Source: an uncultured Treponema sp.
Lineage (GTDB): Bacteria > Spirochaetota > Spirochaetia > Treponematales > Treponemataceae
Reading direction: 5' to 3'
DNA length: 40,468 nt
Assembly: GCA_947177175.1 (NCBI GenBank)
Contig: CAMWTK010000017.1
Location: 1-40,468 of the forward strand
Positions 23,512 to 38,105 of this stretch are shown here, one piece after another. The position numbers were made by a program, and so were the translations under genes. Within the stretch, counting starts at the first letter, position 1. Each line of letters begins with the position of its first letter. The notes under the pieces were generated by a model. The model searched no databases and was not told the DNA's origin. It saw nothing but the letters and a program-made list of their open reading frames with translations.

Positions 23512-23607
23512 ACGCACCCCACAAATCCATTCACCCGATTATATCATATATTCGGCAGAATAGCTGACCGGGAACAGAGAAAAACGCCCGCGCCCCGCAG
23601 CCAATGC

Positions 23608-23822
23608 CTCCCGCAGATGCGGAAAATGGGGCAGACGCAGGCGGGGATTCCGTATGGTACGGAAAGACGAGCGAATAAAAAGTACATTTCCGTATGGCAC
23701 GGAAAATCAGCCGATTGAATATCGCATTTCCGTATGGTACGGAAAGTCAACTGAATAAACATCGCGTTTCCGCACGGTACGGAAAGCAGGAAATATATTT
23801 TTCGCTCCGTGTGGTACGAAAA
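23608..23822. repeat. Tandem array with a 40-bp period and palindromic core
   Basis: Six units begin near 23608, 23647, 23687, 23727, 23767 and 23804. The four central starts are exactly 40 bases apart. The core is the 19-base inverted repeat TTTCCGTATGGTACGGAAA, with an eight-base arm on each side of TGG. Variants include CCGCA/TGCGG in the first unit, which keeps full pairing. The 21-base segments between cores are also related to each other (ending GAATATCGCA, GAATAAACATCGCG). The array fills the 386-base gap between the divergent phosphatase operon (minus) and the DUF6261-like gene (plus). Confidence 0.9.
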
Positions 23823-23897
23823 TCGGCTCTTTTTCCTTTTCTTTCCGTAGTATTTGCAGTATAGTTGAGGCAGACTGACAACGACAAAGGAGCGTCT

Positions 23898-24635
23898 ATG
23901 AAAAAACTGAGAAACCAACTCCGCAACGCCGAGGCCGACGGGGTTTCGGACACGATCGTGCGGCTGTTCAGGGCGGACGCGGGGGCGCAGAAGGACCCGT
24001 TCCTTGCGGCGACCATGGCGCGGCTTGAGACGCTCTCGCAGCAGATAACGACGGCAACCATGCAGGACAAGGCGGTGTCCACGCTCAAGGCGGCGGACGG
24101 CGCGCGCGACGAGGCAATCCGGACGCTCGGCACGATCCTTGCCGCCTACGCCGTGTTCCCGATCGCGGAAAAGCAGGCGCATGCCGTGCCGCTCAAGGCG
24201 GTGTACGACAAATATGCCAAGGCGGGCATCACGGCGGCCAACTACACGAGCGAGTCGTCCCTCACCGAAAGCCTGCTTGAGGACTTTGCGGCGGACGGCC
24301 TTGCGGACAACATCGCCGCGCTGGAGGGCGTGGCGGAATCGCTCGCGCAGGTACGCGAGCGGCAGGACGCGTTCACGGCGGCGCGCGATGCCTACATGGC
24401 GGCCGCGGCGAACAAGGGGGCGACCGCCTCCAGCTTCAACAAGCCGATCGTGTCGCTCATCAACGACAAGCTCATTCCCTACCTGGACGCGATGGTGATT
24501 GCGGAGGACGCGGACTGCGCGGCGTTCGCGCGGAGCGTGGCGGCGGAGATTGCCCGCATGAATGAGACGGTGGCAAAGCGCATAAAGAAGCGCGCGCCCA
24601 CGGCGGCGGACGGCGGCGAAGCGGTCAGTCCTTGA
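23898..24635 (+). CDS. DUF6261-like helical protein
   Basis: This 245-residue protein starts at the ATG at 23898 behind a strong AAAGGAG site (23886-23892). It begins MKKLRNQLRNAEADGVSDTI and is almost entirely alpha-helical, alanine-rich and without signal peptide or membrane segments. The layout of an LRNAE-type start followed by two helical bundles resembles DUF6261 proteins, best known from Bacteroidetes, so I assign it tentatively. No catalytic motif is visible. The gene lies 75 bases after the 40-bp repeat array, and its last 11 bases overlap the 3' end of the convergent helicase gene. Function unknown. Confidence 0.6.
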   Translation: MKKLRNQLRNAEADGVSDTIVRLFRADAGAQKDPFLAATMARLETLSQQITTATMQDKAVSTLKAADGARDEAIRTLGTILAAYAVFPIAEKQAHAVPLKAVYDKYAKAGITAANYTSESSLTESLLEDFAADGLADNIAALEGVAESLAQVRERQDAFTAARDAYMAAAANKGATASSFNKPIVSLINDKLIPYLDAMVIAEDADCAAFARSVAAEIARMNETVAKRIKKRAPTAADGGEAVSP

Positions 24636-36278: not shown

Positions 36279-37456
36279 TGTATAAAATTCAGACACTGAA
36301 CAAAATCAGCGCGATCGGACTGGACAATTTCCCGCGCGAACACTACGAAGTCGCCTCAAGCATCCTTGACCCGGACGCGATTTTGGTGCGCTCGCAGGAA
36401 ATGCACGACATGGCACTCTCGCAGACAGTAAAGGCAGTCGCGCGCGCGGGCGCGGGCGTGAACAACATCCCCATTGCCGACATGACCCAAAAAGGCATCG
36501 TCGTGTTCAACACGCCGGGCGCGAACGCGAACGCCGTCAAGGAGCTGGTCATCCTGTCGCTGCTGCTGTCCAGCCGCCCGGTCGTGGCGGCGAACGCCTG
36601 GGTCGGCAGCCTTGCGGGAAAAGGCGCGGAAATCCCCGCGCTCGCAGAAAAAGGCAAGAGCCAGTTCGTCGGCCCGGAAATCAAGGGCAAGACGCTCGGA
36701 GTCATCGGGCTGGGCGCAATCGGCGCGCTGGTCGCGAACGCCGCCATTGAGCTGGGCATGAACGTCATCGGCTACGACCCGTTCCTGTCGGTGGCGGCGG
36801 CATGGAGCCTGAACCGCAACGTCATCCACGCGGAGACGCTCGACGCCGTATTCGCCAAGTCCGACTACATCACCGTGCACGTCCCGCAGACCGACGACAC
36901 CAAGGGCATGATCAACGCCGCCTCAATCAAGACGATGAAAGACGGCGTGCGCATCATCAACGTGGCGCGCGGCGGACTGGTGAACAACGCCGACATCCTC
37001 GACGCGCTCAACAGCGGAAAAGTCGCCGCGCTCATCACCGATTTTGCCGACGAAGACCTGCTCAAGAACGAAAAAGTCATCTGCTTCCCGCATTTGGGCG
37101 CATCCACCCCCGAAGCCGAAGACAACTGCGCGATTATGGCCGTCAAGGAACTGCGCGACTTCCTCGAAAAAGGAATCGTCGTCAACTCCGTCAACTTCCC
37201 CAAATGCGTCACCGACAACCCCGTACCCGCCAAAGGAACGCGCCTGTGCATCAGCCACAAGAACGTTCCCGGCATGATCGCGAACTTCACCACGATCCTC
37301 GGCGACGCAAAACTGAACATCGCCGGAATGCTTGACCAAAACCGCGGCGACTTCGCCTACGCGCTCATCGACGTGGACGGCTCCGTCCCCGAAGAAACCC
37401 TGCGCAAACTGGCAGCCGTCGAAAACGTCATCAACGTCCGCCCGATTTTCGGGTAA
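36275..37456 (+). CDS. serA: D-3-phosphoglycerate dehydrogenase with ACT domain
   Basis: This 393-residue enzyme oxidises 3-phosphoglycerate with NAD, the first step of serine synthesis. The NAD-binding motif GLGAIG (145-150) is present, as are the catalytic arginine segment NVARGGLVNN (Arg232) and the histidine in PHLGASTPEAE (His273). A C-terminal ACT domain (about 320-393, starting SHKNVPGMIANFTTIL) is present, so feedback control by serine or another amino acid is likely. It resembles the shorter SerA type with an N-terminal RSQEMHDMAL segment. It starts four bases inside serC, and a hairpin repeat element follows the stop within ten bases. Confidence 0.95.
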   Translation: MMYKIQTLNKISAIGLDNFPREHYEVASSILDPDAILVRSQEMHDMALSQTVKAVARAGAGVNNIPIADMTQKGIVVFNTPGANANAVKELVILSLLLSSRPVVAANAWVGSLAGKGAEIPALAEKGKSQFVGPEIKGKTLGVIGLGAIGALVANAAIELGMNVIGYDPFLSVAAAWSLNRNVIHAETLDAVFAKSDYITVHVPQTDDTKGMINAASIKTMKDGVRIINVARGGLVNNADILDALNSGKVAALITDFADEDLLKNEKVICFPHLGASTPEAEDNCAIMAVKELRDFLEKGIVVNSVNFPKCVTDNPVPAKGTRLCISHKNVPGMIANFTTILGDAKLNIAGMLDQNRGDFAYALIDVDGSVPEETLRKLAAVENVINVRPIFG

Positions 37457-37619: not shown

Positions 37620-38105
37620 TCCATTAAGCAGAAAACTCCCTATTTCATCACGGACATTGCCATATCGGACACTGAAATGATGAAATCAGCATTGTTTTAT
37701 CTTATATCAAGCAATATATGACGTATTCTGTCCTGTTTTTTCTTACATCAGACACTAAAAATTATAGGAATAGCACAATATATTTCCATATCAAACAGGA
37801 AAATCATATTTTCATCTTGAGCATTCTTATATCCAGCACGGTTATAGAAAAAATGACTTGATTATTTCTCATAACAAGCATGAAGTATCATTTTTTATCG
37901 TGTTTTTTCTCATGTCACGCACGTTTTTTCAAAAAATGACGTGATTCATTTCCATATCGAGCAAAAAATATCATTTTTCATCTGGATAATTCTTATACCA
38001 AGCAGTTTTTTAGCAGAATCTACCTCATCCCGTGCCATATTTTGCAGAAAATCATGTTTCTCGCCCCGTTTTTTCTCATATCAGGCAGATTTCCTGCGGA
38101 CTTGC
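37620..38105. repeat. Degenerate tandem array with a 41-42 bp period, about twelve units
   Basis: An 11-base anchor with consensus CATATCAAGCA begins at 37620, 37661, 37703, 37744, 37787, 37828, 37870, 37911, 37953, 37994, 38035 and 38076, so steps are 41-43 bases. The intervening segments are AT-rich, usually ending TTTTTTCT or ATTTC just before each anchor. They alternate loosely between an ATCATTTTTCATC type and an AAAAAATGAC type, giving a hint of an 83-base double period. There is no open frame through it. It fills most of the gap between serA and the broken lipoprotein gene (37457-38337). From 38106 to 38337 I see only AT-rich promoter-like sequence before the lipoprotein start. Confidence 0.88.

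Follow-up and report, generated by a model that had tools for sequence, protein, structure and literature searches.

A tandem array of short palindromes forms one module with the DUF6261 gene that follows it, and in some gut Treponema this module is repeated 20–26 times per genome with other palindromes. Judging from sequence comparison, DUF6261 proteins probably bind the dyads upstream of their own genes as DNA sites lying on one face of the helix, and probably autoregulate through them. An earlier note on this DNA had described the array and its neighbour gene; that DUF6261 is the partner of the array, that the module is repeated and that the dyad varies with the N-terminus of the protein were not among its points.

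The array in the window

The window (the whole stretch of 40 468 nucleotides that was analysed) is a contig of a 2.38 Mb genome bin, G000, which is 90% complete. Related proteins come from gut and rumen Treponema. The array (23607–23822) consists of five dyads of the 19-bp type at a 40-bp step and a sixth, decayed one 37 bp beyond. The following features were located.

23538–23543, minus strand: TATAAT, the –10 element of the divergently transcribed SpoIIE-phosphatase gene, kept in relatives whether or not they have the array
23607–23624, plus strand: dyad unit 1, CTCCCGCAGATGCGGAAA, with changes in both arms, kept in the close relative
23647–23665, plus strand: dyad unit 2, ATTCCGTATGGTACGGAAA (read directly, array finder)
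23687–23705, plus strand: dyad unit 3, TTTCCGTATGGCACGGAAA (read directly, array finder)
23727–23745, plus strand: dyad unit 4, TTTCCGTATGGTACGGAAA, perfect (read directly, array finder)
23767–23785, plus strand: dyad unit 5, TTTCCGCACGGTACGGAAA (read directly, array finder)
23804–23822, plus strand: dyad unit 6, CTCCGTGTGGTACGAAAA, decayed, 37 bp past unit 5 (by eye)
23886–23892, plus strand: ribosome-binding site AAAGGAG of the DUF6261 gene (read directly)
23898–24635, plus strand: gene of the DUF6261 family (PF19775), paired with the array (Pfam E 9.9e-14; orthologue in the close relative G077 95% identical)
23901–23924, plus strand: codons 2–9 (KKLRNQLR), candidate dyad-reading segment, containing 5 of the 12 substitutions that separate the protein from its G077 orthologue

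Six 19-base dyads at an almost exact 40-base step had been described, which holds for five of them: the step between the dyad starts 23647, 23687, 23727 and 23767 (19 bp each, read directly) is exactly 40 bp, the centre of the first unit (23616) lies 40 bp upstream of the next, and only the decayed sixth unit (centre 23813) departs from it, at 37 bp. The paired change to CCGCA/TGCGG in both arms of unit 1 was seen as reported, with a loop one base shorter. Units 3 and 5 (23687 and 23767) also carry changes of the type that would leave G-U pairs on the minus strand, but the one in the sixth unit is of G-U type on the plus strand. Tandem Repeats Finder (TRF) gave a period of 40, 3.5 copies and a 77% match, and the array finder a score of 27.0; in 260 kb of Markov-shuffled sequence no chain scored above 14.1. 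The connectors (21 bp) are related to each other and the dyads vary, as expected of the tandem repeat proposed earlier; the near-identical repeats and unrelated spacers of a CRISPR array were not found. Rfam and tRNA scans gave no match.

The downstream gene had been called DUF6261-like, and its product matches PF19775 with 52 bits (gathering cut-off 27). The neighbours of the array and this gene encode a SpoIIE phosphatase and a UvrD helicase. The –10 element of the phosphatase gene was placed outside the module because it is conserved in relatives irrespective of the array. Elsewhere in the window (37781–38010), beyond the gene that ends at 37456 and before the one that follows, lies a second, AT-rich tandem array with a TRF period of 83 (2 × 41.5 bp), probably another array without an adjoining DUF6261 gene.

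Arrays in the genome and in a close relative

Arrays were searched as palindromes at a 38–43 bp step. G000 (844 kb searched) yielded 13 of them and the close relative G077 (671 kb searched) 19, with scores of 15–82 (shuffled maximum 14.1). This search of the genome and its relatives, which the earlier note had suggested, shows that the arrays recur genome-wide and in both genomes. The array is no merely local, drifting duplication; it is the upstream part of a recurrent module. Stems vary between arrays (CCGTA, CCGCA, CCTTA, CCACA, CTACA, AAAACG, AACGGCA, AATTTGG and others), and a connector core near GCCCGGACGNAWWTT is common to many. At the two inner stem positions of 47 window-type units, 31 two-sided changes were counted against 13.5 in shuffles, in line with the constraint on dyad symmetry that had been suspected; taken alone this excess is partly circular, because the units were found by palindromy. 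In G000 and G077 the arrays occupy convergent, divergent and co-directional gaps.

Among 146 genomes of the genus, repeats of the pattern TTTC-N11-GAAA were mostly at chance level, the exceptions being G000, G077 and G083. In G083 (89% complete) such arrays are present and no DUF6261 was found. Many arrays away from DUF6261 genes bear dyads of known modules; for one common dyad family in such positions, AACGGCAAAATGCCGTT, no matching module was found in the sample.

At the window locus, the flanks in G077 are 94–98% identical to those of the window. The G077 array stands at the same place and unit 1 is conserved, but its arms read CCCACA..TGTGGG where the window has CCGTA..TACGG. The DUF6261 orthologues differ in parallel, KKLRNQLR accompanying CCGTA and QKLRGRIH accompanying CCCACA, and 5 of the 12 substitutions between them fall within residues 2–9 (p = 2.5e-5). 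Arms and N-terminus both differ between the two genomes, and the pair would stay matched. At another site, an 11-unit array of G077 (L078, 10051–10438) corresponds to about one unit in G000 (L109, near 18407) between flanks that are 96% identical.

Three further loci were noted. At one locus, arrays of about 41 bp in G000 (L022, 11000–11480) correspond to a palindromic array of about 28 bp, CACCCCTATAAGGGTGAGA, in G077 (L133, 11700–12560). In L113 (14845–15310) a switch of stem from CTACA to CCTTA inside one array coincides with a reversal of the connectors' orientation. In L160 (1491–1812) a hybrid unit, TTTCCTTATTGTAACGAAA, joins a CCTTA-stem block to a CGTTA-stem block, as if arms were turning over singly.

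Linkage of arrays to DUF6261 genes

DUF6261 is expanded in G000 and its closest relatives, with 21 matches in G000, 26 in G077 and 23 in G087; within the genus the family was found in only 14 of 118 genomes, and it was found in none of 14 control genomes. With palindrome chains, arrays were detected upstream of 44/72 DUF6261 genes and downstream of 5/78. When palindromy was ignored and only tandem repetition at 34–49 bp within 700 bp of the gene was scored, arrays (period 40–42 bp, about 41) were present upstream of 69/72 genes. The downstream side gave 1/64, the upstream regions of ordinary genes 33/523 and shuffled sequence 0/72. Because array matches had led to this first set of genomes, a second set to which DUF6261 alone had led was tested in the same way; there, 17 of 19 genes had an upstream array. 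The genes with no detectable array were thus 3/72 and 2/19. Each paralog group of DUF6261 has its own palindrome, and the end of the array lies at a median of 97 nt from the start codon. In many class-1 leaders (e.g. L102, L222, L087) a GC-rich hairpin, CCGCCGCGTATGCGGCGG, directly precedes the ribosome site.

In Prevotella nigrescens, too, a DUF6261 gene (42% identity) is accompanied by a 41-bp array (dyad TTGCCGAGGTTCGGCAA), whose repeats are unrelated, and the linkage therefore spans two phyla. The annotated start of this gene (L251, 3839–4792; NZ_CP082843.1) falls inside the array; the true start is likely about 150 bases further on.

Searches of Pfam, NCBIfam, PADLOC and PDB sequences returned DUF6261 as the sole significant family, with a body that has no known relative, and no recognisable DNA-binding domain was found with Pfam, NCBIfam or PDB sequences. 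The AlphaFold model (pLDDT 49) was unusable for a fold search, and the literature on DUF6261 consisted of unrelated work. IMG/VR scans revealed no viral origin. Two short, unannotated fecal ‘Bacteriophage sp.’ records contain DUF6261 homologues; one such record (L281, MT839608.1) has degenerate TTGATTACAATCAA dyads upstream of its DUF6261 protein.

Period and covariation of dyad and N-terminus

The repeat period depends on the class of protein. Class 1 (proteins starting with about MKEIQ) has 42-bp units in 41/43 modules and class 2/3 has 41-bp units in 31/40, the window array, in class 2/3, having a period of 40 bp. These class-dependent periods of 41/42 bp, close to four helical turns, are the main reason why a role at the DNA level is preferred.

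The class-1 body is nearly constant, whereas residues ~5–10 are hypervariable (entropy 1.4–2.3 bits) between near-invariant neighbours. In the 43 class-1 modules the dyad correlated with the N-terminal residues when the body was controlled for (partial Mantel r = 0.67, p = 0.001), and not with the body when the N-terminus was controlled for (0.03). In class 2/3 the corresponding correlation with the N-terminal residues was 0.29 (p = 0.001), and the connector tracks the protein body rather than the N-terminus. The class-1 signal is confined to the six residues (0.67): the residues on either side gave 0.10–0.11, synonymous sites at most 0.19 and the leader between array and gene 0.14–0.31. Proximity linkage was rejected as its cause, because it would give the opposite pattern, and leader and synonymous sites barely correlate.

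Individual segments are paired with individual dyads. [ST][LI]PLT[ST] goes with TCCGAGG..CTCCGA in 13/13 modules (0/30 without the motif), SIFLG[NG] with TCAAGTG..ACTTGA in 7/8 (0/35), SI[AS]LVN with TCAAAT..TTTGA in 3/3 (0/40) and xxY[VIL]GG with AATTTG..CAAATT in 8/10 (0/33). These patterns were written after inspection of the data; the Mantel test is independent of them. Of the two options that the earlier note had offered, the protein-binding site is favoured, the N-terminus varying with the dyad as if the protein read the array next to its gene.

Alternative explanations

The other option was RNA hairpins made from the minus strand, and the mismatches speak against it. Wobble-type changes lack a strong strand bias, whether counted by connector orientation (23 vs 40) or by gene orientation (20 sense vs 34 antisense, with 129 other mismatches). 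The latter count also lacks the excess of G-U on the sense strand that would be expected if the array were transcribed in the DUF6261 leader and the protein bound tandem RNA hairpins, either in the manner of a type III toxin–antitoxin system or as an RNA autoregulator. The layout agrees with such a leader: the array precedes the gene on its coding side (the median of 97 nt), no clear promoter separates it from the gene, a GC-rich hairpin precedes the ribosome site in many class-1 leaders, and tandem repeats ahead of a gene are the type III arrangement (PMC5086642). However, the class-fixed 41/42 bp fits helical phasing and has no obvious reason in RNA, some dyads have conserved C-C mismatches or are symmetric to the axis without a loop (TCCGAGGCCTCCGA), and arrays away from DUF6261 occur in convergent, divergent and co-directional gaps alike. 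We consider a leader RNA of this kind unlikely.

Still less probable are selfish, REP-like repeats that spread and become uniform by slippage and conversion, keep their symmetry by template switching at quasi-palindromes and are linked to DUF6261 by hitch-hiking. They would account for the differences in copy number, presence and arms between regions of the two genomes that are 94–98% identical, and for the reduction from 11 units in G077 to about one in G000 at one site. They would not account for a linkage that is upstream only (69/72), for a correlation that is restricted to six residues and lacking at synonymous positions, or for the same module in another phylum; nor is there a shared RAYT-type transposase, G077 having no Y1_Tnp match above cut-off. 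That the class-1 arrays, with units of 42 bp or 14 codons, encode repeats within a reading frame upstream is highly improbable. Open frames were in excess (1.70 per array vs 0.70 expected from column shuffles, e.g. L087, L131, L212), but third-position variation was not (126.8, 126.0, 134.5), the frames differ relative to the gene, and units of 40 or 41 bp shift the frame at every unit. The lack of a third-position signal largely refutes the coding reading.

Proposed function

On the preferred reading, DNA binding by DUF6261, the protein would be a sequence-specific DNA-binding protein acting as a dimer, whose N-terminal segment contacts both half-sites of the dyad. The four-turn spacing would place the sites on one helix face, where the helical bodies may assemble side by side, cooperatively, and so form a nucleoprotein array ahead of the gene. 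The direct effect is likely to be control of DUF6261's own expression; arrays without an adjoining DUF6261 gene may be extra targets of the same proteins in trans. A promoter search on both sides of the arrays found no consistent promoter, which leaves the autoregulation unanchored.

With about even chances, DUF6261 represents an unrecognised class of DNA-binding protein with a short, exchangeable recognition segment of about six residues, and the 20–26 largely separate protein/array pairs per genome, together with the arrays elsewhere, would constitute a network of nucleoprotein arrays. An uncharacterised family would gain a concrete and testable function, the proposed target adjoining the gene of each member. 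Dozens of natural protein/site pairs that differ in about six residues would allow a recognition code to be read and tested directly. If true, the proposal would account for a class of fast-changing intergenic repeats in gut Treponema, and it predicts the same arrangement in Bacteroidota.

Comparison with known systems

Neither the DUF6261 family nor the pairing of array and segment matches any described kind found, and none of the families tested fits. REP elements with RAYT appear closest in looks. Palindromes that are short, intergenic and clustered, with variable stems, a conserved unpaired part and several families per genome, are common to the DUF6261 arrays and to REP/BIME elements with RAYT transposases, CGTC-tagged REPs and Neisseria dRS3; CGTC families have been reported in Spirochaetes (PMC3733652). 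The DUF6261 arrays differ in being arranged head to tail at a fixed 40–42 bp and in the linked gene, which is DUF6261 and not a Y1 transposase. The GTAG that adjoins the stem in GTAG REPs was absent from the unit alignments, and the CGTC next to the stem with a CCA tail that marks CGTC REPs and dRS3 was not found; a CGTC-like core occurs mid connector, several bases off the stem, in some dyad families only. PF01797 (Y1_Tnp) matched two IS200-like copies of the same score with an internal TAG, plus a fragment, in G000 and nothing above cut-off in G077, so no association of a RAYT with the repeats was found.

The type III toxin–antitoxin systems (ToxIN, CptIN, TenpIN) share the paralog-specific tandem repeats directly upstream of a single protein gene, but the DUF6261 arrays carry no RNA-structure signal and their units are DNA-like dyads. 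No homology of DUF6261 to ToxN, CptN or TenpN was found in the Pfam, NCBIfam, PADLOC and PDB sequence searches. No consistent terminator was seen between repeats and gene; by eye, hairpins are present before some class-1 genes, a few of them ending in T runs. By eye, too, the N-terminal segment with a helix after it is similar to the ribbon–helix–helix fold of ParR-type binders, which contacts DNA by an N-terminal strand; the AlphaFold model of DUF6261 is poor, and no Pfam ribbon–helix–helix match was obtained up to E 10. Iteron arrays of plasmid replication initiators are helically phased sites upstream of the gene of their binder; no replication-initiator domain was seen in DUF6261, which differs also in its many copies in the genome.

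The closest working analogy is ParR/parC, in which a repeat array likewise lies upstream and its cognate binder, ParR, is linked to it. Many ParMRC families coexist in one species group, with matched sites and no cross-binding (PMC9426499). The DUF6261 modules differ in being chromosomal, in their 20–26 copies per genome and in their palindromic units at four turns, and the neighbours at the window locus encode a phosphatase and a helicase rather than a ParM ATPase. Binding of a protein to repeats that precede the gene encoding it is nevertheless a familiar principle.
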